Assembly (NCBI GenBank): GCA_009927445.1
Contig: RFMZ01000191.1
Span: 1 to 64,000, forward strand
Reading direction: 5' to 3'
Source: Betaproteobacteria bacterium
GTDB lineage: Bacteria; Pseudomonadota; Gammaproteobacteria; Burkholderiales; Burkholderiaceae
Length of the DNA: 64,000 nucleotides
Shown here: positions 21,508 through 43,956 of the stretch, in pieces
Numbering within the stretch: the stretch's first letter is position 1
Layout: the number at the start of each line of letters is the position of its first letter
The notes under the pieces: model-generated
The model's input: the letters and a program-made list of their open reading frames with translations, nothing else
The model's database searches: none
What the model was told of the DNA's origin: nothing
Made by a program: the position numbers and the translations under genes

Positions 21508-21590
21508 TAATCATTTTTTAAAAATGGCAGAAGGATAGTGACATAATATGATGGACTTTGACTACAAAAATTAATTATAAAAGACAAATT

Positions 21591-23273
21591 ATGCATAAAT
21601 TTTATGACTACATCATCGTTGGTGCTGGAGTTGCAGGATGTGTATTAGCAACTCGGTTAACGGCCCAGGCTAAAACAGTTCTATTAATTGAGGCGGGTAA
21701 GGATACCTTACCCGGTCAGGAGCCAGCCGATATTTTAGATAGCTACCCAACCTCCTATTACAACAAATCTTATACCTGGCCAGGCTTAAAAGCTGCTTGG
21801 AAAAAAACAAATCAGGGTACGAGTCATTTTCCTCAAGGCCGGGTGATGGGAGGTGGTGGATCTGTCATGGGTATGGTTTCATTACGTGGAACTCCTGAGG
21901 ACTATTCTGAATGGGTCAAGCAAGGTGCGATAGGGTGGTCATGGGAAGATGTTTTACCTTTTTACTGTAAGCTTGAGCAGGATTTAAATTTTCAGAATGC
22001 GTGGCATGGTCAAACGGGACCAATTCCGATTCGTCGCTTAGAGCGTGCGCAGTGGCAACCTTTAACAAAAGCAATTAGTGCGTATGCCGGTTCCATAGAT
22101 ATGCCATATATTGCTGACATGAATGGTGATTTTCGAGATGGTTTTGGATCTGTTCCGATGTGCAATACGCCAACGCGAAGAGCTTCAACGGCGCTTTGTT
22201 ACTTAACTGCACAAGTTCGAACTCGGTCTAACTTGACGATGGTTCATGAGGCCTTAGTGGAGCATATTATTTTTGAAGGATCAAAAGCTGTTGGGGTGCA
22301 CGTAAAGACGAAAACTGGCCTAGAAGACTATTATGGAGCCGAGATTATTATCAGTGGGGGAGGTATTTTTAGCCCCAGTTTGTTAATGCGGTCCGGTATC
22401 GGTGATGCCCAGTTATTACAACAATTACAAATTCCGGTGTTAGTAAACCGTAAGGGCGTTGGCCGTAATTTACAAAATCATCCTATTTTATTTATTGGCT
22501 TTCATTTAAAGAAGCATGCCAGACAGTCTCTGGAGTTAAGGACTCATCCGAGTGCAAGCATGCGGTATTCTTCGAAGTTACCGGGTACTGCGCCAGGCGA
22601 TTTATACATCAATATTCAGAGTAAAACTTCATGGAATGCGATGGGGCAGCAAATTGGTAATTTAGCCCCTTGTCTTTTAAGGCCCAAATCAGTGGGCCAT
22701 GTGAAGATAAAAAGTTCTCAGGCAGAGATTGCACCCGAGATTGAGTTTAATTTTTTAAGCGAAGAAATTGATTTACAACGGATGATGATGGTCTTTACCC
22801 AAGCAGTGCATATTTTAGAGGATCAGTCTGTTAAATCATTATGTGGGACGCCGTTTCCTGTGCGCTTTTCTGACCGCTTGCGCCTCTTAAATGAATACAC
22901 GCCACAAAACGCTCGAAAGGCCAATGTCCTAGCTACCTTACTCAACTTGTTTCCTGGGATCAGTGATTTTGTTCTTAGTACCTTGACTGGCGATCGACTG
23001 GATTTATCTGCGCTTGTTAAAAATCCCCAAGACCTGGCTGAGCATGTGCGGTCGAATATTGCCGGTATGTTTCATCCTGTTGGGAGTTGTCGAATGGGTT
23101 TTGAATCAGACCCTGGAGCGGTAGTAGATAATCAGTGTTGCGTTTATGGGGTGCAAAATTTACGCGTGATAGACGCCTCGGTAATGCCTAATTTAATGGC
23201 TGGAAATACCAATATTCCAACGATTATGGTAGCAGAGAAGATGGCTGATGCACTCTTAAATAGTTCGGTCTAG
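21591..23273 (+). CDS. GMC-family FAD oxidoreductase (choline dehydrogenase-like)
   Basis: 'YIIVGAGVAGCVLATRL', 'HFPQGRVMGGGGSVMGM', 'GRNLQNHP', 'HPVGSCRMG', 'LRVIDASVMPNLMAGNTNIPTIMVAEK'. Confidence 0.92.
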   Translation: MHKFYDYIIVGAGVAGCVLATRLTAQAKTVLLIEAGKDTLPGQEPADILDSYPTSYYNKSYTWPGLKAAWKKTNQGTSHFPQGRVMGGGGSVMGMVSLRGTPEDYSEWVKQGAIGWSWEDVLPFYCKLEQDLNFQNAWHGQTGPIPIRRLERAQWQPLTKAISAYAGSIDMPYIADMNGDFRDGFGSVPMCNTPTRRASTALCYLTAQVRTRSNLTMVHEALVEHIIFEGSKAVGVHVKTKTGLEDYYGAEIIISGGGIFSPSLLMRSGIGDAQLLQQLQIPVLVNRKGVGRNLQNHPILFIGFHLKKHARQSLELRTHPSASMRYSSKLPGTAPGDLYINIQSKTSWNAMGQQIGNLAPCLLRPKSVGHVKIKSSQAEIAPEIEFNFLSEEIDLQRMMMVFTQAVHILEDQSVKSLCGTPFPVRFSDRLRLLNEYTPQNARKANVLATLLNLFPGISDFVLSTLTGDRLDLSALVKNPQDLAEHVRSNIAGMFHPVGSCRMGFESDPGAVVDNQCCVYGVQNLRVIDASVMPNLMAGNTNIPTIMVAEKMADALLNSSV

Positions 23274-23314
23274 CAGCCTCACTAGGTGGCCGCTAGTTAA
23301 ACAAGTGCTGGCAA

Positions 23315-24328
23315 TTAATTAGATTCTTTGAGCAGACCTGCTTTAGCCATAATTTCTTTGACCACTTCGCGCCGCTTTTCCATTGTAGGAATAATTTTTT
23401 CTGGTGCGATATAGTCCGGTCGCGCATCCCGCTCTTGGGCAAATTTAATAAATTCTGGTTCCTTTGCAGCTTGTTCAACTGCCAGGGCAATTTTGGCAGC
23501 AATATCTTTAGGCATACTCGGCGGGCCGATAATAAGATTGGTTGATTCCCAGCTCACTGGATAGCCAAGTTCTTTTACGGTAGGAAGTTTATCGTAGGGG
23601 GGCGGAGCTCTGTTTTCAGAAAGTGCCGCTAAAAAGCGGACTTGTCCACCGTCCAAAAGTGCTTTAGAAGAAGCAAGACCTGCTACGCCGACTTCAGCAT
23701 GACCACCGGCGACCAAAAGTGCTACATTGGCACCTGCGCCAGTGACCGGAATACTTGCCATACTTAAATTAGTACCTGTTAAGAAAGTTTGGGCACCGAC
23801 CCACCAGCTTTGGCCAACTCCAGCGGTAGCAAGATTCACTTTACCAGGGTTCGCTTTTGAATAAGCAATCGCTTCTTGAATCGTATTGAATTTTAGGTTA
23901 CTTTTATTCGATCCAATGAGAATTGGAAAGAATGTTGCAAAGGCTCCGAGATGGGTAAAGTTGTTATAGTCTATGGGGGATACGCCTTGGAGTTTGTTTG
24001 TAATAATCGTTGCCGAGGCCCAGCCAAGAGTGTAACCATCAGGTTTTGCTTGATGAATTTCTCGGTAGCCAATTGAGCTACCTGCTCCAGGCTTATTGAT
24101 GACAGTAATTGGTTGGCCGAGTATACGAGCGACGCGGTCCATGAGTGGGCGACCTAATACATCACCATCGGCCCCAGCCTCGACTGCCATGATAAAAGTA
24201 ATGGGTTTAGAGGGGTATTTATCTTGGGTAAACCCTCCACTTGCAACTGTCATCGCAACGAGGACACTGATTGATTTAACCACGGAATAGATTAATTTGT
24301 TTGGCATACTTGGCTCCTTTTTTTTCAT
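23315..24328 (-). CDS. Bug/TctC-family substrate-binding protein
   Basis: 'YPSKPITFIMAVEAGADGDVLGRPLMDRV..VINKPGAGSSIGYREIHQAKPDGYTLG'; ATGA overlap with iclR-type gene. Confidence 0.88.
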   Translation of the reverse strand: MKKKEPSMPNKLIYSVVKSISVLVAMTVASGGFTQDKYPSKPITFIMAVEAGADGDVLGRPLMDRVARILGQPITVINKPGAGSSIGYREIHQAKPDGYTLGWASATIITNKLQGVSPIDYNNFTHLGAFATFFPILIGSNKSNLKFNTIQEAIAYSKANPGKVNLATAGVGQSWWVGAQTFLTGTNLSMASIPVTGAGANVALLVAGGHAEVGVAGLASSKALLDGGQVRFLAALSENRAPPPYDKLPTVKELGYPVSWESTNLIIGPPSMPKDIAAKIALAVEQAAKEPEFIKFAQERDARPDYIAPEKIIPTMEKRREVVKEIMAKAGLLKESN

Positions 24329-25086
24329 ATTGTTTGTAATTCATAGTCTACTTTTTTTGCTGCTGTAATTAATGATTCTCTACAAAGTCTCTCAAGATTT
24401 GCATGAAAGCGCACTTCTGGAACAACGATACTGAGTGCTCCTATGGGTGCTTGATCTTCCCGCAAGATCGGAATTGCCAGAGCAATAACACCAACAGAAT
24501 TTTCGCCATACGAGATTGTGACATTGTTTGTAGTATCCACCATAATTTTTTTACGTATCGCTGCCTCCGTAGTTGCAGTCTGGTTCGTAAGCGCTTTGAG
24601 GGGCGTTTTTTTAAAGTAAGTCACTTTTTCAGATTCGGATAAGCAGTTGAGAATTGCTTTACCAGCAGCCGCTGCGTAGAGGGTAAATTGCACGTTTGGG
24701 GTCATCCGATAACTCAGGGGGTAACTTGCTTCTTCCCCGAGGACTCGTTCAATATGGTCCCCTTTAAAGAGATAAAAAGCTGAGGCTTCTTTGGTTTTTT
24801 CGGTAAGCCATCCAAGCTGGATTTTAGCTATTTTTAATATATTTTTTGCTGTTTTACCCTGCTTACTTAAAGCAAAAAATGCTGCCCCTAAGTGGTAGGT
24901 GTTGGCGCTGAGATTTTTTTCTAAGTAGTTACGATTAACTAAATTTTTTAATAAGGCAGATAAGCTACTTTTGGGAATGTCTAAGGTATATGCAATTTCA
25001 GAATGTGACGCAGAGTTACCGCGCCGGCATAAGAGTTCGAGAACATCAAGAACGCGATCAGCTGATTTGATGGCTGCATCCGTCAT
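24325..25086 (-). CDS. IclR-family transcriptional regulator
   Basis: N-terminal wHTH 'VLDVLELLCRRGNSASHSEIAYTLDIPKSSLSALLKNLVNRNYLEK' plus C-terminal IclR effector domain 'AAAAGKAILNCLSE...IALAIPILREDQAPIGALSIVVP'. Confidence 0.9.
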   Translation of the reverse strand: MTDAAIKSADRVLDVLELLCRRGNSASHSEIAYTLDIPKSSLSALLKNLVNRNYLEKNLSANTYHLGAAFFALSKQGKTAKNILKIAKIQLGWLTEKTKEASAFYLFKGDHIERVLGEEASYPLSYRMTPNVQFTLYAAAAGKAILNCLSESEKVTYFKKTPLKALTNQTATTEAAIRKKIMVDTTNNVTISYGENSVGVIALAIPILREDQAPIGALSIVVPEVRFHANLERLCRESLITAAKKVDYELQTI

Positions 25087-25253: not shown

Positions 25254-26216
25254 TTGATGCATCAAAAAATTGCACAGCTAATCATTTTTGGATTAATTAG
25301 CACTTTTTCAGCGCACGCGGCATATCCTGAAAACACCATGAATCTCGTTGTATCTTTCGCGCCTGGAGGAGCAACTGATATTACTGCCCGGATAGTAGCG
25401 GCAGCGATGTCTAAAAATATTGGTCAACAAATTGTAGTCGAAAATCGCCCTGGCGCAGGTGGTGCAGTGGCAGCGGGAATTGTACGAGCCAATAAGCCAA
25501 ACGGTTACACCTTAATGCTGACATCGAGCGTTTATGTAGTGACTCCCAGTTTAAAAAAGCCTTCTCCCTATGATCCTTTAAAAGATTTCATACCCATTTG
25601 CGAAATTGGCGATGCTCCAAACGTCATTGTTGTTAAAGCTGATTCGCCGATTAAAAATTTAAATGATCTGATTATGATGGCCCGTAAAGATCCAAAATTA
25701 GTTAGCTATGGCAGTCCTGGCCCAGGGACTACTCCGCATTTGGCTGGGGAAGTATTAAAGATTCGTGAAAATATCATGATGACCCATATTCCCTATAAGG
25801 GCGCGGGGCCGGCGATGACCGATTTGCTGGGTGGTCAAACACAAGTTCTTTTTGGTAGTTTAGCCTCCGTCATGGGACAAATTCAGGGTGGACTGGTTCG
25901 CCCTATTGCGCAAACTGGAGAACGTCGATGGCCTGATTTAGCCAATTTACCGACTTTGGCCGATTTGGGCATTAAGGACGCGGTTTCGAGTACTTTTCAG
26001 GCAATTTTTGTCAATGCTGGAACGCCACCGGAGATTGTTAATTATTTGTCTAAACAGTGTGTTGCCACAATCAAGCAGCCTGAGGTGGTGGAGAGTTTAA
26101 AGCAAGCCGGACTTGCTACAACAGCATTAGACTCGCAGGGTTTACGGGGGCGTATCATGCGCGAAGTCCCATATTGGGCAGACGTGATTGAAAAAGGTGG
26201 TATCAAAGGTGAGTAG
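25254..26216 (+). CDS. Bug/TctC-family substrate-binding protein
   Basis: 'YPENTMNLVVSFAPGGATDITARIVA', 'VVENRPGAGGAVAAG', 'HIPYKGAGPAMTDLLGGQ'. Confidence 0.92.
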   Translation: MMHQKIAQLIIFGLISTFSAHAAYPENTMNLVVSFAPGGATDITARIVAAAMSKNIGQQIVVENRPGAGGAVAAGIVRANKPNGYTLMLTSSVYVVTPSLKKPSPYDPLKDFIPICEIGDAPNVIVVKADSPIKNLNDLIMMARKDPKLVSYGSPGPGTTPHLAGEVLKIRENIMMTHIPYKGAGPAMTDLLGGQTQVLFGSLASVMGQIQGGLVRPIAQTGERRWPDLANLPTLADLGIKDAVSSTFQAIFVNAGTPPEIVNYLSKQCVATIKQPEVVESLKQAGLATTALDSQGLRGRIMREVPYWADVIEKGGIKGE

Positions 26217-26266
26217 AAATACTCGGTGTAGTTAAAAATAAACTGGCTACAGTTAAAGGGGGCATT

Positions 26267-27064
26267 ATGAAAATATGGTGGCAAAGTAGTACGGCGATAC
26301 ATCGTTTAGATGATTACCGGAACACACTGACTAAAAATTTAAACGATTTAAAAAGATCCGATGTCGAAGTCCATGTGAACGGGGTTGATGACGGCTCAAT
26401 GGATTTACATTACAACGCGGTAGTGGCGATCAATAGTTATGGCGTCGGTGGTGTTTTAAATAAAATGATGCAAGCCCAAGATCAGGGTTATGACGCAATT
26501 GCGATTGGATGCTTCTTAGATCCAGCGATGCAAGAAGCGAGAGAATTACTATCTATTCCAGTATTTGGTTTAGGTGAGACGAGTATGTTGATGGCATGTA
26601 GTTATGGCCATAAATTTTCTGGCATTGCTTTTCATAAAAAACAATCGCAATATTACGATCGCAAAGCCTTTGAGTATGGCTTGAGTTCTCGGCATATTCC
26701 ATTTGGTGATTTAGGCATTGACTTTAATGAAGTCCAAAAAGCCTTCACTGATCCAGGGCAGATGACTGAAAATTTCTTAAAAGAATCCAGGAGATTAGCA
26801 GCGGCTGGGGCAGAAGTGATTCTTGCCGCATGTGCGACTGTAAACGCTATTATTCGTAGGGAAAATATTAAAGAGGTTGATGGTGCTTTGATTATGGATT
26901 GTAATGCGGTGTTATTAAAAACGACTGAGGCCATGGCCGAATTAAGTAAAACTATTGGCTTATCATCAAGCCGAAGTTTGTTATATCAATCGCCCAGTAA
27001 AGCCTCGGTGGATCAATGGAAGCAGATTTACGGGTTTCGGTCCAGTCCACAATTAAAGAAGTAA
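26267..27064 (+). CDS. Asp/Glu/hydantoin racemase-family protein
   Basis: 'YDAIAIGCFLDPAMQEARELLSIPVFGLGETSMLMA', 'AEVILAACATVNAI'. Confidence 0.8.
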   Translation: MKIWWQSSTAIHRLDDYRNTLTKNLNDLKRSDVEVHVNGVDDGSMDLHYNAVVAINSYGVGGVLNKMMQAQDQGYDAIAIGCFLDPAMQEARELLSIPVFGLGETSMLMACSYGHKFSGIAFHKKQSQYYDRKAFEYGLSSRHIPFGDLGIDFNEVQKAFTDPGQMTENFLKESRRLAAAGAEVILAACATVNAIIRRENIKEVDGALIMDCNAVLLKTTEAMAELSKTIGLSSSRSLLYQSPSKASVDQWKQIYGFRSSPQLKK

Positions 27065-27068
27065 GTGC

Positions 27069-27947
27069 ATGAGGTATATTAGAACAGCATTATTTGCGCC
27101 TGGAATTAATCCAAAGGTGATGGCTAAGGCAATTGCAAGCGATGTAGACGCCGTGATTCTCGATCTAGAGGACTCTGTTTCAAATAGTTCAAAGGTTGAG
27201 GCGAGGCAATTAGTTCGACAAACAATTTTGGATTTACATGATTCTGCTGCAAAAGATAAGCCCTATGTCATGGTACGAGTAAACGCCGCTGATACGGGTC
27301 TTTTAGCCGAGGATGTTGAAGCAATCACGGTGGCTGGTTTAGGGATGGTATTTATTCCAAAAGCTGAACACCCTCAGGATATTGAAAAAGTCTCCAAACA
27401 ACTAGATCGTCTAGAGCAGGCTCAAGGGATTTCCGGAGTAGCGATTGGTTTACAAATTGAGACAGCATTGGGTGTATATCGATGCTATGACTTAATTAAA
27501 GCATCTGCGCGAGTCCAGCTAACCTCTTTAGGGACTGCCAAGGATGGCGACTTACAAAATAATTTGGGTTGTGGATGGTCGGTTGACGGCCCAGAAATGT
27601 TATACGCTAGGTCCAAGGTTCTATTAGATTCCCGAGCGGCTGGCAACGTTACACCGATTGACGGCGTATTTGCAAATTTAAATGATGAACCTGGATTATT
27701 AATTGAGTCAACCATGTCTGCAAGTTTGGGTTATGTTGGCAGAACAATTATTCATCCTAAGCAGATTGAAATCGTTGAAAAAGCTTACGGAATTTCGCCA
27801 GCATTAATCGCTTATTATGAGCAAATCATCAGCGAATTTGAAGCAGCAGAAAAAGAGGGTATTGCTGCGATTACGATTAATAATCAACTCATTGATTATG
27901 CAATGTATCGCCAAGCAAAACGTGTCATAACTACAATGAAAAAGTAA
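27069..27947 (+). CDS. HpcH/HpaI / CitE-like CoA-ester lyase
   Basis: 'RTALFAPGINPKVMAKAIASDVDAVILDLEDSV', 'VRVNAADTG', 'IGLQIETALGVYRCYDL', 'GRTIIHPKQIEIVE'. Confidence 0.9.
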   Translation: MRYIRTALFAPGINPKVMAKAIASDVDAVILDLEDSVSNSSKVEARQLVRQTILDLHDSAAKDKPYVMVRVNAADTGLLAEDVEAITVAGLGMVFIPKAEHPQDIEKVSKQLDRLEQAQGISGVAIGLQIETALGVYRCYDLIKASARVQLTSLGTAKDGDLQNNLGCGWSVDGPEMLYARSKVLLDSRAAGNVTPIDGVFANLNDEPGLLIESTMSASLGYVGRTIIHPKQIEIVEKAYGISPALIAYYEQIISEFEAAEKEGIAAITINNQLIDYAMYRQAKRVITTMKK

Positions 27948-27951
27948 AGCA

Positions 27952-29094
27952 ATGAATTTTGAATTAACAGCAGATCAAAAAAATATCCAAAACCACTTAT
28001 CGGAATTACTAAAAGATGTTTGTAGTCAGGAGTATGTTCGAAAATGTGATGAAACTGAGACCCCTCCTCGAGAGGCTTTTAATGCCTTAGCCAAAAATGG
28101 CTGGCTTGGTTTAATTGGTCCTGAAGAATACGGTGGTGCCGGGGGTACGGCGACAGACCTCGCTATTATGTTAGATGTCTTGGGGTATCACTTTGAAGAG
28201 TTGGGTTTATGGGTATTTCGTAATTTGACATACGGCTGTGTTGCGGTATTAAAACATGGCAGTAAAGAGCAAATCGAGCATATGGTCCCTAAAGTTTTGC
28301 GCGGCGAGTTGTCATTTTGTTTTGGATTAACGGAGCCAGACTCTGGGTCGGATGCCAGTGCTTTGAAAACACGGGCAATTCATCAGGGCGATCATTTTCT
28401 GGTCAATGGCCGAAAAGTCTATACCTCTGGGATGGATATTAGTGACTACTGTATCTTAGTAACTCGAACGAATTTGTTAGAAAAGAAACAGCAGGGTATT
28501 ACTAATTTCTTGGTGGATACAAAATTACCCGGTATAGAAGTGAAGAAATTAGCAACCCTAGGACAGCGGTCGATTGGGACAACCGAGGTGCTATATAGCG
28601 ATGTTAAGGTGCCGGCAAATGCTATTTTAGGAGAGCTCGATCAGGGTTGGAAGGGCGCAGATACTTATTTGTGCTACGAGCGTTTATGTTTATCTGCAGC
28701 TCGAACAGGAGCTGCTAGAGCAGCGTTTGATTTTGCATTAGAGCATGCGAAGACGCGCGTACAGTTTGGTAAACCAATTGGTAAGTTTCAAGCTGTTTCA
28801 CATAAGTTAGCTGATATGAAAGCCATGTTAGATATTGCGCAGACCATGGTTTATCGATATGCTTGGTTAGTAGAGCAGGGTAAAGACACGCGCCAAGATG
28901 CGGCGATCTTAAAGCTGTATACGAGTGAATCGTATAAATCGATTGCAGATATGAGTTTACAGATTCTTGGTGGTTATGGGTACTGTATGGAATATCCATT
29001 ACAACGTTTTTTCCGAGACTCACGCTTAGCAACAATTGGTGGCGGTACCTCCGAAATTCAGCGCAACATCATTGCAACTAGTTTAGGTCTGTAG
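27952..29094 (+). CDS. acyl-CoA dehydrogenase
   Basis: 'FCFGLTEPDSGSDASALKTRA', 'TRVQFGKPIGKFQAVSHKLADM', 'RDSRLATIGGGTSEIQRNIIA'. Confidence 0.95.
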   Translation: MNFELTADQKNIQNHLSELLKDVCSQEYVRKCDETETPPREAFNALAKNGWLGLIGPEEYGGAGGTATDLAIMLDVLGYHFEELGLWVFRNLTYGCVAVLKHGSKEQIEHMVPKVLRGELSFCFGLTEPDSGSDASALKTRAIHQGDHFLVNGRKVYTSGMDISDYCILVTRTNLLEKKQQGITNFLVDTKLPGIEVKKLATLGQRSIGTTEVLYSDVKVPANAILGELDQGWKGADTYLCYERLCLSAARTGAARAAFDFALEHAKTRVQFGKPIGKFQAVSHKLADMKAMLDIAQTMVYRYAWLVEQGKDTRQDAAILKLYTSESYKSIADMSLQILGGYGYCMEYPLQRFFRDSRLATIGGGTSEIQRNIIATSLGL

Positions 29095-29102
29095 AGACTG
29101 TT

Positions 29103-30305
29103 GTGACACATTCCTTAACTGGTGTTCGAATTATTGAGCTTGGCCAAATTATCGCTGGAACCTATGGTGGGCAAATATTGTCGGATATGGGCGCAGAGGT
29201 CATTAAAGTTGAAGCGCCGCATGGTGACCTTGGGCGTAATCCATCGGTAGCACCTTATTTAGGCGTTAGTGGATTATTTTTAACATTTAATCGCAATAAA
29301 AAGAGTGTGGTTATTGATTTAAAAAATCCCCAAGGTAGAAATATTTTTTTGGATTTAGTTAAAAGTGCAGACGTGATTGTAGATAATTTTCGACCAGGGG
29401 TAATGCAACGTTTAGGGATTGACTATCCTCAGTTAGTTCAGGTGAATCCTAAAATTATTCACTGTTCGATTACTGGTTTTGGATCCGCTGGCGACTACAA
29501 AGACTATCCTGCTTTAGATATTATTATTCAGGCGATTAGCGGTCATATGGCGATTACCGGTGAGCCTGGTCGTCCACCGGTTCGACTTGGGATTCCGTTA
29601 GCCGATTTAAGTGGTGGGTTGTTTTCTAGTCAAGGGATTCTAGCAGCACTATACGAGCGAGAAAAAACTGGTCAAGGGCAGCATATGGAGTTAGCCATGT
29701 TTGACGCTATGTTGAGCTTACTGACCTATCTTGGCACGATGTGGTTAAGTAATGGCGAGTTACCTAAGCCTCCGGGTTCTGCGCACGAGTACTCAGTGCC
29801 TTGGCAAGCTTTTAAAACAAAAGATTCTTATATCGTGGTCGCAGCTCGTGAAGAGGTTCATTGGAAGAACTTCTGTAAATCCTTAGGATTAACTACGGTT
29901 TTTGACGATGAGCGATTTAAAACGAATGCTTCTCGGGTAGCGCATCGACATGCTTTATTAGCTATTTTAGAACCATTTATCGCTTTAAATTCAACGCAAT
30001 ATTGGATGGATAAATTTCGGGATGACGATGTGCCGGCTAGTCCAGTCAATCATTTTGATGCGGCTTTTGCAGAACCACCGGCGATTCAAAATCAGGCCGT
30101 AGTTGAATACGATCATCCGGTTGTAGGAAAAGTGCGTATGCCGGCTTATCCAGTAAAAATGGGGCATGATCGGCCAGTGATTTCTAATCCTGCCCCTGAA
30201 CTTGGGCAGGATACTAGAACAGTCTTAGCTGAATTATTGTCTTATAGCCAAGAGCAGATTAATGGCTTAAGAACAAGTGGTGCGATTTTTTGTCAGGGGG
30301 AATAA
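29103..30305 (+). CDS. CaiB/BaiF (class III) CoA-transferase
   Basis: 'GVRIIELGQIIAGTYGGQILSDMGAEVIKVEAPHGDLGR', 'FNRNKKSVVIDLKNPQGR', 'DNFRPGVMQRLGIDY'; catalytic Asp region 'LAMFDAMLSLLTY'. Confidence 0.95.
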   Translation: MTHSLTGVRIIELGQIIAGTYGGQILSDMGAEVIKVEAPHGDLGRNPSVAPYLGVSGLFLTFNRNKKSVVIDLKNPQGRNIFLDLVKSADVIVDNFRPGVMQRLGIDYPQLVQVNPKIIHCSITGFGSAGDYKDYPALDIIIQAISGHMAITGEPGRPPVRLGIPLADLSGGLFSSQGILAALYEREKTGQGQHMELAMFDAMLSLLTYLGTMWLSNGELPKPPGSAHEYSVPWQAFKTKDSYIVVAAREEVHWKNFCKSLGLTTVFDDERFKTNASRVAHRHALLAILEPFIALNSTQYWMDKFRDDDVPASPVNHFDAAFAEPPAIQNQAVVEYDHPVVGKVRMPAYPVKMGHDRPVISNPAPELGQDTRTVLAELLSYSQEQINGLRTSGAIFCQGE

Positions 30306-30307
30306 AG

Positions 30308-30757
30308 ATGGTTGGACTATATTGGGAAGAGTGGCAAGTTGGTAAAACATTTGAGAGTGCTGCTAGGACGATTACAGAAACAGACATTGTCAATTTTGCT
30401 GGCATATCCGGTGATTACAATCCATTACACATCAATGAAGAGTATTGCAAAAATACGCAATTTGGAACACGTATTGCGCATGGTCCATTGATTTATGCCA
30501 TTGCCGCGGGGCTATTATTCCAGTTACATTTATATGATGACACATTAATAGCATTTTTAGGATTTGAAAGTTTGAAATTTACCAAACCGACCAAGATTGG
30601 AGATACGATTCACGCCAAGATTACTGTGACGGAGTTAAGTGAAACATCCAAGTCAGACCGGGGCGTGATGAAACGTCAATTACAGGTTATTAATCAGCGC
30701 GGAGAAGTAGTTCAAGAGGGTATTCAAGCTTTTTTAATGAAACGTAAACCAGCATGA
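30308..30757 (+). CDS. MaoC-family (hotdog) dehydratase/hydratase
   Basis: 'ITETDIVNFAGISGDYNPLHINEEYCKNTQFGTRIAHGPLIYAIAAGL' hydratase-2 motif. Confidence 0.92.
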   Translation: MVGLYWEEWQVGKTFESAARTITETDIVNFAGISGDYNPLHINEEYCKNTQFGTRIAHGPLIYAIAAGLLFQLHLYDDTLIAFLGFESLKFTKPTKIGDTIHAKITVTELSETSKSDRGVMKRQLQVINQRGEVVQEGIQAFLMKRKPA

Positions 30758-31647
30758 AAACTCCGAAAATTGGCTTTATTGGCCTAGGGTTAATGGGTGG
30801 GTGGCTAGTAAAGCATTTATTGGCTGCAAAGTATACGGTTCACGCTTTCGATCTTGATCAAGAAAAAATTGCAGCTGTTGCGAAGCACGGGGCAATTCCG
30901 GTATCTGATCTGAGAGATTTACCCGCACTTGTGGATGTCATTATCCTGTCTTTACCCAATTCAAAAATTGTCCGACAAGTCGTTCAAACAGATTTAAATT
31001 TATTTGCCCAATCAAAAAAAGATTTAATCATTTTAGATAGTTCAACTTCTGATCCTGAATTATCGATCGAGTTAGCTCAAGAGCTAGCTAATCGAGGAAT
31101 ACATTTTTTAGACGCATCGATTAGCGGCACGAGTGAAATGTGTGCTATCAAAGATACGATATTTATGGTGGGTGGGCAAGAGTCGATCTATGAGCAATGT
31201 TGTCCTATCTTTGCCGCCATGGCACGCGAGTCAGTTTATATGGGGCCAAGTGGAACTGGCGCAGCAATTAAGTTAGTCGTTAATTTAGTACTGTCGATTA
31301 ATCGGATGGGGATGGCCGAAGGGCTAACCTTAGCGAAAAAAGCTGGCATCGATCAGCTAAAAGCTTTAGAGGTATTAAAAAAATCCGCCGCTTTTTCGAA
31401 GGCGATGGATCAGAAGGGTTATCGGATGGTAAATAGAGATTTTTACCCTCCTATCGGTCACTTAACAACGCACTATAAAGATGTGCAATTAATGGTATCT
31501 TACGCCGCTAGTTTGCATTGTCCAGTCCCGTTAATAAGTCTTAATGCGCAGGCACTGGCCTCTGAGCTAAGTAAAGGTGCAGGTGATCGTGATAGTTCAG
31601 CAGTGATTTGCTTTTATGATGGGTTGATTGCTAAAACGCAGTCCTAA
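30754..31647 (+). CDS. 3-hydroxyisobutyrate dehydrogenase-family NAD(P)-dependent oxidoreductase
   Basis: 'IGFIGLGLMGGWLVKHLLAAKYTVHAFD', 'FLDASISGTSEMCAIKDTIFMVGG', 'GTGAAIKLVVNLVL'; ATGA overlap with upstream gene. Confidence 0.9.
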   Translation: MKTPKIGFIGLGLMGGWLVKHLLAAKYTVHAFDLDQEKIAAVAKHGAIPVSDLRDLPALVDVIILSLPNSKIVRQVVQTDLNLFAQSKKDLIILDSSTSDPELSIELAQELANRGIHFLDASISGTSEMCAIKDTIFMVGGQESIYEQCCPIFAAMARESVYMGPSGTGAAIKLVVNLVLSINRMGMAEGLTLAKKAGIDQLKALEVLKKSAAFSKAMDQKGYRMVNRDFYPPIGHLTTHYKDVQLMVSYAASLHCPVPLISLNAQALASELSKGAGDRDSSAVICFYDGLIAKTQS

Positions 31648-31651
31648 GCTG

Positions 31652-32410
31652 ATGCAATTTTCTGGTGTAATTGTGTTAGTAACAGGGGCTAGTCAGGGTA
31701 TTGGTAAAGAGATTGCCCTCCAATTTGCGCGCGAGGGAGCACATGTTTGTGCGCTCGCCAGAAATAAAATAGACTTAGATGCTTTAGTCGAGAAAATTCG
31801 AGCTACAGGGGGGCATGCAAGTGCCCATGCTGTAGATGTTACACAGGCTGTCTCGATTCGAGCGACTATCAATGAGATTGGCCAGAGATATGCGCATATC
31901 GATATTTTAGTTCATGCGGTGGGTGGTTTTAAGCGTTTATTACCGGTGGATGAAATTACTGAAATAGAATGGGATGAAGTCTTCAATGTAAATCTCAAAT
32001 CGGTTTTTTTATGTACCCAAGCGGTAATTCCCTGGATGAAAATCCGGCCATCAGGGCGAATCATTTTGCTAGGATCAATTGCTGGCGTATCACCTAACCC
32101 GCACGCCAAGTCATACTTACCATATGGCGCAGCAAAGGCAGGGGTTCTTGGCTATACAAAACATTTAGCAAAAGAACTGGGTGGCTTTGGTATTACTGTT
32201 AATGCTGTATCACCAGGCACAACCGCGACTGAACGTGTCATGCAAATTCGGAGTGCAAACGATTTACAAAAATTAGCGGCCGCCAATCCATTGAATCACC
32301 GGATTGAGCCTAGCGATAGTGCGGCTGCTGTTTTATTTTTAGCTTCACCGCAGGCCAAAGGGATTACCGGAGTTAATTTAAATGTTAATGCAGGAAGTGT
32401 CATGCTCTAG
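31652..32410 (+). CDS. short-chain dehydrogenase/reductase
   Basis: TGASQGIG, 'YLPYGAAKAGVLGYTKHLAKEL', C-terminal VNLNVNAGSVML. Confidence 0.9.
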   Translation: MQFSGVIVLVTGASQGIGKEIALQFAREGAHVCALARNKIDLDALVEKIRATGGHASAHAVDVTQAVSIRATINEIGQRYAHIDILVHAVGGFKRLLPVDEITEIEWDEVFNVNLKSVFLCTQAVIPWMKIRPSGRIILLGSIAGVSPNPHAKSYLPYGAAKAGVLGYTKHLAKELGGFGITVNAVSPGTTATERVMQIRSANDLQKLAAANPLNHRIEPSDSAAAVLFLASPQAKGITGVNLNVNAGSVML

Positions 32411-32431
32411 TCAACTAAAGAAGGAGAAAAA

Positions 32432-32896
32432 ATGGAATTAAAAGCAACCTTACAAGTCCTCAATCAAGCGGATTATCCTGGTCGACGAGGCGTCACTGAT
32501 GGACAAACCTATCAACGATTGATTGGTTGGCCTGAGGTAAATGAAACAGACCGAGTACGTCTTGGTAGAGCTACTTATGCGCCGGGTACTTATGAACAGT
32601 TACACTGGCATCCGATTGAGGCATGTTATTACGTGATTGCTGGCAGTGCGACTGTGCGTAATGTTTCTGGGGAAGAGTTTGAGGTGGGGCCAGGATCCAT
32701 GATTTATGCCCCGCCTGGCATCGCTGGGGCACATGAGTGGGAAGTTAAGGAGCATCTAGAAATCCTTGATATTCGGGCTTGTAATGAGACTAATCGTAAG
32801 ATGCAATATACCGTTGATAAGAAGACTATGCGATCATTTATTGATTTAGAGGATATTCACTATCGAGATGCGATTAGTTTTAAATCGCATTATTAA
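32432..32896 (+). CDS. cupin-domain protein
   Basis: 'EQLHWHPIEACYYVIAGSATVRNVSGEEFEVGPGSMIYAPPGIAGAHEW'. Confidence 0.88.
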   Translation: MELKATLQVLNQADYPGRRGVTDGQTYQRLIGWPEVNETDRVRLGRATYAPGTYEQLHWHPIEACYYVIAGSATVRNVSGEEFEVGPGSMIYAPPGIAGAHEWEVKEHLEILDIRACNETNRKMQYTVDKKTMRSFIDLEDIHYRDAISFKSHY

Positions 32897-32993: not shown

Positions 32994-33569
32994 ATGGAAC
33001 AAACTAAAGGGTATGTTCGCCGGATTGTTACTGGGCATGATGAGCATGGTCAATCCATAGTAACCGAAGATTGTGCTGCACCAGCGGTTCATACGAACCC
33101 TAAACGCGTTGGATTTTATTGTACCAACTTGTGGATTACGCATGAGACCCCGGCTGTCGTGAATAATGGTCCCGACCCAACGACTGGGCCAATGGTGCTA
33201 GAGCCACCTAAAAGTGGTTCCGTAGTTCGGATTATTGAATTTGGCCCTGAAGGTGACTGGACAAAGGAATTGGGCTCAGAAGGAGCAAAAGCTGCCTTTG
33301 GTGCGATGGGGACGGATAAGGCCTCAACCTTTAAGCAGGGTGGTCATCCTTTAATGCACCGTACAGAGTCGGTTGATTATGCTTTGATTTTAGAGGGGGA
33401 GATTTACCTGGTCCTGGATCAAGAAGAGTGCCTCATGCGGCAAGGGGATTTTTTAGTCGAACGTGGGACAAGTCATGCATGGGCAAACCGGTCTGGTAAA
33501 CCCTGTAAGATTTTATTTGTATTAATTGACGGTAAGTTTGATCCTGAATTAGCAAAACATTTTGGATAA
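32994..33569 (+). CDS. cupin-domain protein
   Basis: 'MHRTESVDYALILEGEIYLVLDQEECLMRQGDFLVERGTSHAWANRS'. Confidence 0.88.
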   Translation: MEQTKGYVRRIVTGHDEHGQSIVTEDCAAPAVHTNPKRVGFYCTNLWITHETPAVVNNGPDPTTGPMVLEPPKSGSVVRIIEFGPEGDWTKELGSEGAKAAFGAMGTDKASTFKQGGHPLMHRTESVDYALILEGEIYLVLDQEECLMRQGDFLVERGTSHAWANRSGKPCKILFVLIDGKFDPELAKHFG

Positions 33570-35746: not shown

Positions 35747-36784
35747 ATGACACTTCAACATCAAATTATTTCAGAAAAAGACCTCACGCAGTTAGGCATA
35801 GATGCTTTTATTCAATTGGGTTTAAAGCCCAATGATGCCAGAGATGTCGTACAAATCTTAGTACTTGCAGACCTATTTGGTTTATCAACGCATGGTTTGA
35901 GTCGGATTGAATCTTATGGTGAGCGATTACGTATTGGTGGCATAAATCCACAGCCTCAAATTGTTGTTGAACGTATTGCTTCGGCCATGGTTCGAGTGAA
36001 TGGCGACAATGGCGTTGGCCCTTTAGTAGGGATGCGAACGCTGGAGGCGGCTATGGCTGTTGCTAAGGACTGTGGAATTGGTATTGCATTAGCTCGGGGG
36101 AGTAACCATTTTGGACCTATTTCACCCTACGCATTATTAGCTGCTGAGCAAGGTTTTGCAACGATCATCGGTAGTAATGCGACAACAACTATTGCGCCAT
36201 GGGGTGGAACTGATGCACGGTTGGGTAATAGTCCTCTTGGTTTTGGGGTGCCAAATCCTGGTGGGCGACCATTTCTATTAGATATGGCCATGAGTGTTGT
36301 AGCGCGGGCCAAGATTCGTAATGCACTTAAAAGAGGGGAGTCCATTCCCAACACTTGGGGTACAGACGCTATGGGTGTGCCAACGACTGATCCGAAAGCC
36401 GCTTTGGATGGATTCTTATTACCAATTGGTGGGCACAAGGGATACGGTATTGCATTATTAGTCGATTTATTTGCTGGATTATTGTCCAATGCAGCCTATT
36501 TAACCCATATTAAGTCGTGGCAAGACGCGCCTGATGAGCCGCAAAATTTAGGGCACTTTTTTATCCTCATTGATACGAAGGTATTAGGTTCTCCAGAGTG
36601 GCTTGCGCAGCGCATGAATGACTTTGCGAGTATCCTCATGGATAGTCCGCCAATTGATCCAAGTAAGCCGGTTATAGTACCTGGCTCTATTGAATTAGAT
36701 AGAATGGCCCAGCAACGCCAATCAGGTATTGAGATTAGTTTAGAGACGATTAAGCAATTACAAAAATATACGAACGGATCATGA
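35747..36784 (+). CDS. Ldh-family (malate/L-lactate/ureidoglycolate dehydrogenase type) oxidoreductase
   Basis: 'LFGLSTHGLSRIESYGERL', 'ARGSNHFGPISPYALLA', 'LPIGGHKGYGIALLVDLFAGLLSNAAY'. Confidence 0.9.
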   Translation: MTLQHQIISEKDLTQLGIDAFIQLGLKPNDARDVVQILVLADLFGLSTHGLSRIESYGERLRIGGINPQPQIVVERIASAMVRVNGDNGVGPLVGMRTLEAAMAVAKDCGIGIALARGSNHFGPISPYALLAAEQGFATIIGSNATTTIAPWGGTDARLGNSPLGFGVPNPGGRPFLLDMAMSVVARAKIRNALKRGESIPNTWGTDAMGVPTTDPKAALDGFLLPIGGHKGYGIALLVDLFAGLLSNAAYLTHIKSWQDAPDEPQNLGHFFILIDTKVLGSPEWLAQRMNDFASILMDSPPIDPSKPVIVPGSIELDRMAQQRQSGIEISLETIKQLQKYTNGS

Positions 36785-36789
36785 TTATT

Positions 36790-37775
36790 ATGAAAACAAA
36801 GTTATTTCAGGGAGTATTCGTCGGGTTATGGACCTTACTAGTAGGTTTACCATTGTTGGCTAGTGCGCAAAAAACCTATCCAGAAAAAGCATTAGGATGG
36901 TTGTTCCATACGTGGCTGGCGGTGCAGCAGATATTACAGCTAGGCTGATTGCGCAGAGTTTTTCTGAGAGCATGGGTCAATCGGTAGTGGTTGAAAATAA
37001 GCCCGGAGCTAATGGTTCCATTGGGACAGAGCTTGTTGCTAAATCTGCGCCGGATGGGTATACCCTGTTATTGACTGCAAGTGGCCCACTTGTGGTTAAT
37101 CCTAGTATGGGCAAAAAACTTAACTATGACCCTATTAAAGACTTTGCTCCAATTAGCTCGGTCATTAGTTACCAGTACGCTGTTGTGGTGACGGCTACTT
37201 CTCCCTTGCAAAATTTAAATGAGATTGTTTCGGAGGCAAAATTAAAACCAAAACAAATAAGTTATGGCTCTACTGGTATTGGTGGTGGCGGGCACTTAGC
37301 TGGGGAGCTATTTGCTTTAATAGCTGGGGTAGAAATGACGCACGTGCCGTATAAAGGAGCTGCTCCAGCGTTAGCAGATTTATTAGGTGGTCATCTAAGC
37401 TTTACTTTTGAGCCATTAGTAACGGCTGTGCCTTTAATTAAGGCTGGAAAATTAAAGGCCTTTGCTGTTTCAGCGAGTAATCGCAGTAAAGCTTTACCGC
37501 AATTGCCAACGATGCAAGAAGCAGGATTTAAAGGCTTTAACATTGCACAATTTCAAGGATTATTGGCTCCGGCAGGGACTGATCCAGTGATTATTGCGCG
37601 CCTTTACAACGAAGTAGTAAAAGCGCTTAAAGCCCCGGGCACTGTAAAAAGATTAGTCGATGATGGTGGTAATGAAATTATCGGAAGTAGTCCAAAGGAT
37701 TTTTCTACGCAAATACAAAATGAATTAAAGATGTATGCAAAATTATTACAGGATGCCAAAATCCAAGCCGAGTAA
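36790..37775 (+). pseudogene. Bug/TctC-family substrate-binding protein with a 1-nt frameshift near 36891
   Basis: 36790 ATG encodes MKTKLFQGVFVGLWTLLVGLPLLASAQKTYPEKA- (signal peptide + YPEKA), then the frame jumps to 36897 MVVPYVAGGAADITARLIA...; adding one A (gcaTTAGG to gcaATTAGG) restores YPEKAIRMVVPYVAGG. Confidence 0.8.
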
Positions 37776-37802
37776 AACGGGCGGTCATTCTATAGCAGTT
37801 TC

Positions 37803-39197
37803 TTATTGCAGTAAGTTGGTTAACGTTTGAATATCAGTTAATGTGGAGAAATTTTTCACTAGGCTAATCATTTCTTGGGTAGTCGATTTGGAGTACCTTC
37901 GCCCAAGCTCTGTCATTGCCCCAAGCTGATGGTCAAGAGTACTATAGGGTCTAGACGGACTTCCTTTTGGGGCATTTACTTGCGTAAAAAGAGTTTGGCC
38001 ATTTTTGAGTTGCATAGTTAGCTTCGCACTGACTGACTCATTTGTGCTAGTTTTTTCTACATCTGGGTCTAACTGACATTGCACAAGTTCACAAAGTCGC
38101 ATTACTTCTGGATGGTGTAAGCCCTGCTCTACATCATCTACATTAATAACTAATTGTGAGGACGGGGTTGATTTAAAAATACTTAACGCCACACAAAATG
38201 GAGCGCTCATTTGAGCAGATTGAATATCTTTTGGTGAATTGGATGTCAGACGTCCTTGGATTACTTTTGGTATACCCAAAGTAATCGCTATTATTTGACC
38301 ACTTTGAATAGCATGTTCTAAACACAGAGTATTTGCTGCTTCGATAGCGGAAAGAACGCGCGCACTTGTGGCATGTGGCTTAATCGCCACCTCAGTTATT
38401 TGATAGTCCTTTCCAAGACCTTCAAGAGCTTGTAAATTTATTGAATCTGAGTAGGCTCTCGCAAAGCCATCTTGACCTTCAAAAATATCTGTTGGCCCAG
38501 AAAATCCTGAGTGGACTAATAATGCGGCTTTTACACCCGAACTTGCAGCTTGGGCGGCGTGTAGTCTTTTGACGGTTGAGCCAGAATGAAAAAACTGCAC
38601 AAGACCACCAGCAAATGACGCGGCCACCCCTAAAGTTTGGGCAATTTTTAAGGCTTTCTTTGCGGGAGGCTCTTCATTAAATAATAGGCTTGCGGCAGTA
38701 AGGGCAGAACCTAGAACGCCAATGGTTGAAGTACTTTGAAAGCCACGTTTAAAATGGCTGGGCTGGATACACAGTCCTAATCGAATCATTGTTTCATAGC
38801 CGGCAATAATCGCAGGTAGTAACACATGGCCACTAAGTTTTCGACTATGACCAATTGCTAGAGCACTTGAAAAGATAATACAACCGGGGTGTAGCATAGC
38901 GCCAACATGAACATCGTCTGCATCGATACTTCCAGCGTAAATAGCGTTGATGAAGGCGGCGCTAACAACATCATAGGATTTTTTGGAAAAGAGGATGGGA
39001 GCTGGGCCTAAAGCAGCTGTTTGAAGCGCATATTGTTGCGCCCAGCTACTCCAAGGCATTCGTTGGCCAACCGATGCCACCCGCAAATAATCTAAAAAGA
39101 GATCTGTACTTAATTCAGTAATTGATTTTGGGATATCTTCAGCAGATATTTTTGCTGCAAACTCTGACAAAAACATCGTAGTTTGAGAATAATTCAA
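37803..39197 (-). CDS. MmgE/PrpD-family protein
   Basis: 'DADDVHVGAMLHPGCIIFSSALAIG', 'HSGSTVKRLHAAQAASSGVKAALLVHSGFSGP', 'KPHATSARVLSAIEA'. Confidence 0.88.
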   Translation of the reverse strand: MNYSQTTMFLSEFAAKISAEDIPKSITELSTDLFLDYLRVASVGQRMPWSSWAQQYALQTAALGPAPILFSKKSYDVVSAAFINAIYAGSIDADDVHVGAMLHPGCIIFSSALAIGHSRKLSGHVLLPAIIAGYETMIRLGLCIQPSHFKRGFQSTSTIGVLGSALTAASLLFNEEPPAKKALKIAQTLGVAASFAGGLVQFFHSGSTVKRLHAAQAASSGVKAALLVHSGFSGPTDIFEGQDGFARAYSDSINLQALEGLGKDYQITEVAIKPHATSARVLSAIEAANTLCLEHAIQSGQIIAITLGIPKVIQGRLTSNSPKDIQSAQMSAPFCVALSIFKSTPSSQLVINVDDVEQGLHHPEVMRLCELVQCQLDPDVEKTSTNESVSAKLTMQLKNGQTLFTQVNAPKGSPSRPYSTLDHQLGAMTELGRRYSKSTTQEMISLVKNFSTLTDIQTLTNLLQ

Positions 39198-39204
39198 AGT
39201 GGCT

Positions 39205-40620
39205 TTATTGAGCTAAGGGTTGGAGGGTTAGTAATGCCTGTACGGATTTTAAATCTTTGGCATGCATTGCGTGATTTAACCAGTCATCACATGCGGCTGA
39301 ACCAAAAAGGGGCTGAGCTACACTTATAAATCGTTGAGCAACCTCTAGTTGAGTAATAGGGTTTTGTGGACAGCCTTTAGGAAATTCAATGAAATGTTCT
39401 AGGCGCTCGTTATTGTGCAGGATACAAACTACGCGGGCCGGTACAGCCTCAGTGGTCGTTTTGGCTTCGACCTCGGGGTCAATCATGCACTGACAGAGTT
39501 TTGCAAGATTAATAATTGCATGATTGGACAAGGACTGTTCGTAATCATCGATTGATAAGGCAATGGGGCCTTTGCGCTGTGGTGTGATTGTTAATGCCAT
39601 AGCTACTGCAAAGGGTGTACTTAGCTGCGCTTGTTGAAAGTCCACGGGCGTATTGCTAGTTAATTTTCCAAGCATTGCGCCGTGCACTCCAATTTCAATC
39701 GATTTAATTTGCTCAGTATTCGAAATTTTCGTTGATAGAAAAGCGGCAGCCTCTATTGCTGCTTGCATTCTAACGCTACTTGCATGTGGCTTTAGGGAGA
39801 TCCAGGCAGTAGGAAAATAGGTTCCAAGTCGATCAATAACCAGCTTTGGATCAAAACGGTCTGAAAAAGCCCTAGCAAATCCTTGGACGCCCTCTATCGC
39901 GTCTGGTGGGCCAGTTAGACCAGCTTGCGCCAATAGTGCTGCCTCAATACCATTAGCGCCCGCCTTACCCGCATGAAAACGTTTAATGTCAGATCCGGAA
40001 ACGAAAAATTGTGATAGTCCGCAAGCAAACGTTGCGGCAATTCCGAGCGCATTTTGGGTTTGAGGGATTGTTAATTGCAGTAGTTTGGCACACGCAGCGG
40101 CAGCACCAAAAACTCCACAAGTAGGTGTTCCTTGAAAACCTCTCAGAGAATGTTCTGGTTGAATACTCATCCCAATCCGAATAGCTGTTTCGTAGCCTGT
40201 TAGAACAGCGAGTAAGAGTTCTTCACCGCTTGCTTGCGTTATTTCAGCCATTGCGATAGCTGCTGGCCAAATACAAACTCCTGGATGAATGATTGCCGCC
40301 ACGTGTGAATCATCCCAATCTAGGCCACCGCTAGCAACGCCATTAATAAATGTAGCTTGATTGATATTGACTAATTCTTTTGAAAACCACAAATGAGAAT
40401 TCATGGAGGACCGATGATTTGCGTATAAGCGCTTAATTGACTCAGTCCAAGGTCTCTTAAATCCAACGGCTGCAGCGCGAAATATATCGATTAAAAGAAT
40501 TGGCATCAATTCTTGAATATTTTTTGGTACCTGTGACCACTGTAATTGCACGATAAATTTTGCTAATTCAGCCGTGACAGGAACTTGGCTATGAGAGATT
40601 ATTTGATTAGGAGTCATCAT
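39205..40620 (-). CDS. MmgE/PrpD-family protein (tandem paralog)
   Basis: 'LDWDDSHVAAIIHPGVCIWPAAIAMAE', 'GSDIKRFHAGKAGANGIEAALLAQAGLTGP', 'KPHASSVRMQAAIEA'. Confidence 0.88.
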   Translation of the reverse strand: MMTPNQIISHSQVPVTAELAKFIVQLQWSQVPKNIQELMPILLIDIFRAAAVGFKRPWTESIKRLYANHRSSMNSHLWFSKELVNINQATFINGVASGGLDWDDSHVAAIIHPGVCIWPAAIAMAEITQASGEELLLAVLTGYETAIRIGMSIQPEHSLRGFQGTPTCGVFGAAAACAKLLQLTIPQTQNALGIAATFACGLSQFFVSGSDIKRFHAGKAGANGIEAALLAQAGLTGPPDAIEGVQGFARAFSDRFDPKLVIDRLGTYFPTAWISLKPHASSVRMQAAIEAAAFLSTKISNTEQIKSIEIGVHGAMLGKLTSNTPVDFQQAQLSTPFAVAMALTITPQRKGPIALSIDDYEQSLSNHAIINLAKLCQCMIDPEVEAKTTTEAVPARVVCILHNNERLEHFIEFPKGCPQNPITQLEVAQRFISVAQPLFGSAACDDWLNHAMHAKDLKSVQALLTLQPLAQ

Positions 40621-41613
40621 TTAATTCTTCAATAGACCCATGTTGATAACTTTACCCCATTTGTTATAGTCATTGCGCATATAGTTGGTTAGATCTTCAG
40701 GTTTGCCGCCAAGTAAAAGGATTGACTCATCAGCAAATCTTTTTTGCATTTCTGAAAGCTTCAGTATTTTATTGATATCTGTATTGAGTTTCAGAGTAAT
40801 CTCTTGCGGAAGATTGGCTGGGCCATATAATCCCCACCATTGGGTAGATTCAAAACCATGAAGACCAGTTTCATGAAGAGTTGGGATATTTGGGGCAATT
40901 GAAATTCTTTTTAGGCTTGTAACACCAAGGGGTTTTAATTTGCCAGCCTTAATCATTGGAGCAACGCTGGCATAGGCGGCAAATAACGCATTGACTTGGC
41001 CACTGGCCACATCGACAACGGCCGGGGCGGCCCCCTTATAGGGCACGAGTAAAAATTCTACATTAGCAGTTTGCTTAAAAAGGTCTCCAGTTAAGTGGCT
41101 TAAAGTTCCCGCCCCGTTCGAGGCAAAATTAAAGTTACCCGGTTTGGACTGGAGTAATGCAATGAGTTCTCGGATATTTTTCGCAGGAAATTCTGGGGAA
41201 ACCACAAGTACATTAGGGGAGTACCCAATTAAAGAAATAGCGGTGAAGTTTGTGAAGGGATCATAAGTTGGTTTAGTTTGTTGATGTGGATTAATTGCCA
41301 TAGCGCTACTCGAAGTGAGTAGGAGTGTATAACCGTCTGGTTCGGCGGACATGACAAATTGTGATCCAATCGCACCACCCGCACCTGGCTTGTTGTCAAC
41401 AATGAAGTTAACTTTCGAAGTCTCGGTCATTTTTTGGGAGATTAAGCGCACAACAATATCTGCTGCTCCACCGGGCGGGAATGGACTAATTACACGAACA
41501 GTTTGTAAGGGATAGTTTTGAGCAAAGCTAGCGCAGCTCCAAAAAAATAACAGCAAAAATGGTAACACTGCCTGAGTTAGGGTTTTTATTTTTAAGTATA
41601 GATAATTCATCAC
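40621..41613 (-). CDS. Bug/TctC-family substrate-binding protein
   Basis: 'YPLQTVRVISPFPPGGAADIVVRLIS', 'IVDNKPGAGGAIG', 'VPYKGAAPAVVDVASGQ'. Confidence 0.92.
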   Translation of the reverse strand: MMNYLYLKIKTLTQAVLPFLLLFFWSCASFAQNYPLQTVRVISPFPPGGAADIVVRLISQKMTETSKVNFIVDNKPGAGGAIGSQFVMSAEPDGYTLLLTSSSAMAINPHQQTKPTYDPFTNFTAISLIGYSPNVLVVSPEFPAKNIRELIALLQSKPGNFNFASNGAGTLSHLTGDLFKQTANVEFLLVPYKGAAPAVVDVASGQVNALFAAYASVAPMIKAGKLKPLGVTSLKRISIAPNIPTLHETGLHGFESTQWWGLYGPANLPQEITLKLNTDINKILKLSEMQKRFADESILLLGGKPEDLTNYMRNDYNKWGKVINMGLLKN

Positions 41614-41663
41614 ACGATTCTCTGGATATGAGTTAACAAGTATTAAGAAAAATAGATAGGAAT

Positions 41664-42725: not shown

Positions 42726-42728
42726 TTT

Positions 42729-43691: not shown

Positions 43692-43865
43692 AGATAAACT
43701 TTCTTAATGTGGATTGTTACAACTTAAACATTTGAACTTATTTGACCGGTAGCGTATTTCCATGATTATATGTTTAATATTCTTGGCACCCGAAATAGGG
43801 CATATTTAAGAAGCAGACGTGATACCGAGAGTTCTGAGGATATTCGCTAAAATTGAAATGTAAAT

Positions 43866-43891
43866 AGTATTTACTATCAGCAGTAAATACT
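43866..43891. promoter_or_regulatory. 10-6-10 perfect inverted repeat, candidate operator
   Basis: AGTATTTACT-atcagc-AGTAAATACT in the divergent intergenic between the Bug gene (-) and TPP gene (+). Confidence 0.5.
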
Positions 43892-43956
43892 TTGTTTTAT
43901 GATGTTGAATGGCAGAAGTAATTAGAGAACAATAAAATCATATTAAGGAGATATCC

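Follow-up and report, generated by a model that had tools for sequence, protein, structure and literature searches.

Which acid is degraded by a run of tightly packed catabolic genes in a betaproteobacterial genome, and is a route for that acid already known? The genes lie at 25254-32896 on the + strand of the stretch analysed here (the window; 64,000 nucleotides of contig RFMZ01000191.1, GenBank assembly GCA_009927445.1, Betaproteobacteria bacterium). The cluster is a genuine and conserved counterpart of the methylsuccinate pathway that has not been described so far, with a chemistry that we infer. Its conserved core consists of five genes, encoding an Asp/Glu/hydantoin-racemase-fold enzyme (Rac), a CitE-like lyase (CitE), an acyl-CoA dehydrogenase (ACAD), a class III CoA-transferase (CaiB), and a MaoC-type hydratase (MaoC). 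There is about an even chance, in our judgement, that this core serves to degrade a chiral substituted succinate of the HOOC-CHR-CH2-COOH type, and not, or not only, methylsuccinate. The R group is most likely a small alkyl or hydroxyalkyl. The gene families, the conserved unit, the catalytic residues, the fold of Rac, and the distinctness from known clusters are results of computation.

Gene Layout and Conservation

Open reading frame (ORF) and family searches recovered all the gene types named in an earlier sequence-only reading of this DNA, on the + strand and in the order given there. The interval holds nine genes (Bug1, Rac, CitE, ACAD, CaiB, MaoC, HIBADH, SDR, and cupin) rather than the ten counted in that reading. 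A second cupin (32994-33569) falls outside it and is kept with the cluster solely within the same species. The intergenic distances are, in order, 50, 4, 4, 8, -16, -4, -20, and 21 bases. The operon-like packing described earlier is real in its short gaps and overlaps (50 to -20 bases), but the two longest overlaps, CaiB/MaoC (-16) and HIBADH/SDR (-20), hinge on TTG start calls. An Rfam search of the window found no RNA element. The host is a freshwater bacterium resembling Polynucleobacter. Its genome (G000) is a 3.0 Mb draft that is 95.6% complete, with the cluster on contig C113, and its genus-mates have genomes of 1.7–2.2 Mb. Judged by the Rac cluster, Polynucleobacter rarus and P. kasalickyi are the nearest named relatives.

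The conservation of the core has been followed with two queries. With CitE as the query, 399 genomes of the order yielded seven besides the host at 52–59% identity. The CitE-ACAD-CaiB order is kept in all seven, MaoC comes next in four, and Rac is found at 69–80% in three. An alignment of Rac was scanned against genome contigs of 84,980 species, with two near-identical same-species copies set aside, and gave 38 loci at 58–92% identity in Polynucleobacter, other Betaproteobacteria, Hyphomicrobiales, and Candidatus Rokuibacteriota. At least one core partner lies near Rac in 32 of the 38 loci and all four partners in 24, while three of the six loci lacking core partners (L092, L094, L099) reach contig ends. 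Pairwise distances, with shared ancestry left in, correlate at 0.93–0.94 among CitE, ACAD, and CaiB and at 0.70–0.73 between Rac and these three. The unit has probably moved between bacterial lineages. A plasmid search with CitE returned matches of at most 36% identity and no close relative. Bug, CaiB, and ACAD paralogues are plentiful in these genomes, as would be expected if promiscuous catabolic genes had become neighbours by chance and had no common substrate. This explanation is very improbable given a gene order conserved over several bacterial lineages and the correlated divergence.

Two side observations concern these loci. A galactarate-dehydratase-like gene (UxaA/GarD family) lies beside the core in two related genomes (L060/L111 and L062, about 12.5 kb). 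The titles of three metagenome-assembled genomes (L073, L096, and L098; Thermoflexus hugenholtzii, Chitinophaga pinensis, and Bordetella parapertussis) seem at odds with their betaproteobacterial-type content, and may be misnamings.

Core Enzymes

Rac (26267..27064, + strand) belongs to PF01177 (E 1.8e-21), which it matches with 77.3 bits against a gathering score of 31. The two catalytic cysteines characteristic of the fold are present as C82 and C189, which are invariant across all orthologues aligned. An AlphaFold model built from a 35-sequence alignment has a predicted local distance difference test score (pLDDT) of 89.4, and replaced an earlier model built on four close sequences (pLDDT 34), which was discarded. 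The best PDB folds for this model are the allantoin racemases of Klebsiella and Pseudomonas (TM 0.71–0.75), followed by hydantoin and aspartate racemases. Maleate isomerases belong to the same superfamily and are also two-cysteine enzymes. Rac could, by analogy, be a cis-trans isomerase supplying the CoA route with an unsaturated branched diacid, in which case the ACAD would serve another entry point. The chance of this is slight, as both the sequence and the fold of Rac are nearest to the allantoin/hydantoin racemases and the family search gave no match to the Amdase-type family PF17645.

The CitE-like CoA-ester lyase (27069..27947, + strand; PF03328) forms its own clade with a support of 100/99. 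It scores below the NCBIfam cut-offs for CitE and RipC. Malyl-CoA lyase, human CLYBL, and the structure 8khl are all at a similar distance from it; we take 8khl to be the Pseudomonas lyase from its name and its position in the lyase tree. The ACAD (27952..29094, + strand) has the motif Y242-E243-R244-L245, invariant in 39 aligned sequences. On established family knowledge, E243 is the catalytic Glu of the isovaleryl-CoA dehydrogenase (IVD) type, and G364 occupies the position of the medium-chain-type Glu. The aligned canonical methylsuccinyl-CoA dehydrogenase (Mcd) likewise has the IVD-type Glu and lacks the C-terminal Glu. The CaiB/BaiF protein (29103..30305, + strand) is a class III CoA-transferase, as PF02515 spans its full length (E 2e-122). 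It is nearest to dicarboxylate transferases, human SUGCT being the nearest solved structure (9br6, E 4.9e-81). The last core gene (30290..30757, + strand) encodes a single-domain MaoC-type enoyl-CoA hydratase of 155 aa (PF01575, E 4.6e-27), with a weak match to the RipB/Ich model (54 bits, cut-off 340). None of the cluster enzymes reaches the curated NCBIfam cut-offs of characterised equivalogs.

Some of these features would also suit 3-methylglutarate or another glutarate substituted at C3, in which case the lyase would act like the CitE-type 3-hydroxyacyl-CoA lyase Rv2498c, giving acetyl-CoA and acetoacetate or a similar 3-oxoacid. SUGCT is a glutarate/hydroxymethylglutarate (HMG) transferase, the ACAD is of the IVD type, and 3-oxoacid CoA-transferase genes (PcaIJ/ScoAB or CoA_trans family) adjoin the core in L057, L058, L103, and L106. 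On the other hand, these extra transferases occur in few loci, and 3-methylglutarate is prochiral, which leaves a racemase of the free acid without a role. The lyase also scores higher against malyl-/citramalyl-CoA lyases (116.6 and 113.6 bits) than against Rv2498c (68 bits). A glutarate substrate is therefore improbable.

Proposed Pathway and Substrate

With the five-gene cluster Ich-Mcd-Ict-Msi-Ccl, Cupriavidus and Pseudomonas break down methylsuccinate in both of its enantiomeric forms (Gonner et al. 2025, PMC12290011; De Witt et al. 2023, PMC9875883). In this route, the MmgE/PrpD protein (Msi) isomerises the free acid, Ict adds CoA, the ACAD forms mesaconyl-C4-CoA, Ich hydrates it, and Ccl cleaves the product. 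The isomerase is needed because the CoA-transferase favours one enantiomer (PMC12290011, PMC9875883). The enzyme classes of the core match these steps, which supports the earlier proposal of a route in which CoA transfer is followed by alpha,beta-desaturation, hydration, and C-C cleavage, paralleling C5 dicarboxylate routes. Since the characterised cluster holds a free-acid isomerase, a racemase is expected by pathway logic. Rac had been considered foreign to the known routes; by analogy it matches the Msi step (PMC12290011), and what sets it apart is its family and fold.

From the enzyme classes, we infer every reaction and the substrate of the core as follows. The acid would enter through a tripartite tricarboxylate transporter (TTT) with Bug proteins. 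The proposed activity of Rac is that of a substituted-succinate racemase, which would interconvert the free acid's enantiomers through 1,1-proton transfer with two cysteines, the mechanism used by allantoin and aspartate racemases. The CaiB-type transferase would load CoA onto the acid, probably from succinyl-CoA, and the ACAD would oxidise the thioester at C2-C3, where an IVD-type base would suit a beta-branched thioester. MaoC would hydrate the product to a homologue of malyl- or citramalyl-CoA, which the CitE-like lyase would cleave, leaving a 2-oxoacid and an acyl-CoA that is probably acetyl-CoA. Most core loci share no additional catabolic enzyme, so both products are expected to be central metabolites.

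Whether the substrate is methylsuccinate itself can be addressed through the canonical cluster in the same genomes. In both P. kasalickyi (L201) and P. rarus (L202), a single cluster holds the five canonical genes, and the Rac cluster is at another place in the genome (L083 and L079). A close Msi (at least 57%) is found in 25 of the 40 core- or Rac-bearing genomes searched and Ich in most; among Betaproteobacteria with the core, the majority have both Msi and Ich as well. Two clusters doing the same job would be expected to exclude each other, so their co-occurrence favours a related substrate other than methylsuccinate. The suggestion of the sequence-only reading that the substrate is probably a different one is thus strengthened by the complete methylsuccinate cluster in these two cultured relatives.

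The core could instead be a convergent second version of Msi/Ict/Mcd/Ich/Ccl acting on methylsuccinate, with Rac in place of Msi and the short MaoC in place of Ich. Its proposed set of steps is identical to that of the characterised route (PMC12290011). Fifteen of the 40 genomes lack a close Msi, and six of those 15 lack Ich as well. The Rac cluster is alone there, and these genomes show that it can stand alone. The canonical cluster of the host, moreover, is without Ich and Ccl. Against this, the complete canonical cluster in P. rarus and P. kasalickyi lowers the idea of a mere Msi replacement, and full redundancy, as implied by Msi and Ich in most core-bearing Betaproteobacteria, is unexpected in small genomes. 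We consider methylsuccinate unlikely as the substrate, although its chance is not negligible.

Several observations weigh against the preferred assignment to another chiral substituted succinate. The host encodes canonical Mcd-Ict-Msi on contig C92 (80, 66, and 63% identical to those of the relative L150), but no canonical Ich and no close Ccl were found in its 95.6% complete draft, and the MaoC and CitE of the window could complete a methylsuccinate route there. Four core-bearing genomes lack Rac and have only paralogues at 30–33%, so racemisation is not essential everywhere. A carboxymuconolactone-decarboxylase (CMD)-family gene occupies the expected Rac position in three of the four. Cis-trans isomerases are also among the two-cysteine enzymes of the Rac fold, and identities of 30–37% to characterised enzymes are insufficient to fix a substrate.

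In the three genomes with this replacement (L057, L058, and L059), the tandem CMD-family protein, which was tested in L058, precedes CitE. Their Rac paralogues are only 32–33% identical, and two of the three also carry a fused 3-oxoacid CoA-transferase. The host has, on contig C139 (L156), a further CaiB-ACAD-CaiB-CitE cluster, whose ACAD is apparently frameshifted and about 50% identical to canonical Mcd.

In its fullest form, the proposal is that Rac is the first Asp/Glu/hydantoin-racemase-fold enzyme to racemise a non-amino, non-hydantoin dicarboxylic acid. Rac would stand at the head of a CoA pathway not described before, which acts on a branched succinate distinct from methylsuccinate, arose in parallel with the Msi pathway, and is common to Betaproteobacteria, Hyphomicrobiales, and Rokubacteria. 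We advance this combined claim tentatively, at somewhat less than even chances. The cluster predicts that bacteria of humic freshwater and soil have a second natural way to degrade chiral branched dicarboxylic acids, and that cofactor-free cysteine racemases act on a further class of substrates.

Accessory and Neighbouring Genes

Around the core, HIBADH, SDR, cupin, GMC, Bug, and IclR have been added in particular lineages. Bug1 (25254..26216, + strand; PF03401) is a tripartite tricarboxylate transporter solute-binding protein of the TctC family and adjoins Rac in 13 Polynucleobacter-type loci. Upstream, the conserved block of Polynucleobacter-type relatives extends further than had been noted (21558-25086). 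It includes a divergent IclR-type regulator (24325..25086, - strand; PF01614/PF09339; 13 of 38 loci), which is likely a local regulator, the Bug0 solute-binding protein (23315..24328, - strand), and a GMC oxidoreductase (21558..23273, + strand; 8 of 38 loci). Orthologues of Bug0 at 57–66% adjoin TctA/TctB beside the cluster in other Betaproteobacteria (L056/L089, L061/L105, and L102). The closest PDB relatives of Bug0 and Bug1 gave no pointer to a ligand.

Downstream of MaoC lie a beta-hydroxyacid dehydrogenase of the HIBADH/tartronate-semialdehyde-reductase family (30754..31647, + strand; 9 of 38 loci), an optional SDR oxidoreductase (31628..32410, + strand; 5 of 38), and a Cupin_2 protein (32432..32896, + strand; 8 of 38, each time with HIBADH and at 86–95% identity). 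IclR, Bug1, GMC, SDR, and cupin are confined to Polynucleobacter-type loci, and a single HIBADH (L089, 66%) occurs outside them. HIBADH and SDR had been read as clues to the substrate, but neither is in the conserved core; with the cupin they are missing from all but one non-Polynucleobacter locus and are therefore unusable for inferring the core chemistry. The top model for HIBADH is 2-hydroxy-3-oxopropionate reductase (191.8 bits, cut-off 397). A route from itatartarate/(hydroxymethyl)succinate to hydroxypyruvate and its reduction by HIBADH was weighed from family resemblance and remains a guess.

An MmgE/PrpD-MmgE/PrpD-Bug module (37803..41613, - strand) is a possible extension of the pathway. 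P. rarus (L079) and P. kasalickyi (L083) have a Bug-PrpD-PrpD module, 56–65% identical to it, immediately after the cupin, and the module may prepare or isomerise a related acid. A second catabolic island (35747-49360) holds an Ldh_2 malate/lactate dehydrogenase, several Bug proteins, two MmgE/PrpD proteins, an isocitrate/isopropylmalate-type dehydrogenase, an amidohydrolase, and an arylmalonate-decarboxylase-family protein (47614-48294). At 43957-45638, a thiamine diphosphate (ThDP)-dependent acetolactate-synthase-like enzyme is interrupted near 44610, where a stop and a shift of frame leave two ORFs; a frameshifted gene or an assembly error is the probable cause. A Rac orthologue without the core (L109:2880-7651) adjoins two ACADs, MmgE/PrpD-like genes, a ThDP-enzyme, and an arylmalonate-decarboxylase-family protein, a gene content resembling this island.

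Comparison with Known Systems

The allantoin/hydantoin racemases HpxA, AllR, and HyuE have the fold and the two catalytic cysteines in common with Rac, but are only ~20% identical to it, and the Rac cluster contains no hydantoin or allantoin genes. The Yersinia-type itaconate cluster RipABC also pairs a MaoC-type hydratase with a CitE-type lyase; unlike the window cluster, it has neither ACAD nor racemase. The window CitE (123 bits against the RipC cut-off of 375) and MaoC, whose RipB match is given above, fall outside these families. The Mcd-Mch-Mcl module of the ethylmalonyl-CoA pathway dehydrogenates, hydrates, and cleaves methylsuccinyl-CoA in the sequence proposed here. However, it lacks a CoA-transferase and a Rac-fold racemase, its CoA regiochemistry differs, and Mcl lies in a separate clade. 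Literature searches turned up neither a description of a cluster of this kind nor a Rac-fold racemase acting on methylsuccinate.

The closest system is the methylsuccinate/itaconate cluster of Cupriavidus necator and Pseudomonas aeruginosa. Canonical clusters were recovered from relatives (L149–L153) through a PrpD search, and their Ccl proteins form a group with the Pseudomonas-type lyase structure. NF038242 (RipC) retrieved none, as this model covers the Yersinia type. Other Polynucleobacter genomes (L154 and L155) have Ich-Msi-Ccl without an adjoining Mcd or Ict, an exception to the published rule of Msi beside Mcd. The ACAD, CaiB, and CitE of the window are only 31, 33, and 33% identical to the canonical set of L150, too distant for orthology, and the lyase is in a separate clade. 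No MmgE/PrpD gene lies within the window cluster, and the one compared of the PrpD pair 5 kb away is ~28% identical to Msi. The isomerase is thus of the MmgE/PrpD fold in one system and of an unrelated racemase fold in the other, and the hydratase is Ich (~280 residues) in one and the short MaoC in the other. Both systems nevertheless have the same five roles, and their ACADs share the IVD-type base. With the known methylsuccinate enzymes present in the same cultured strains, the question of two pathways for two acids is open to direct comparison.

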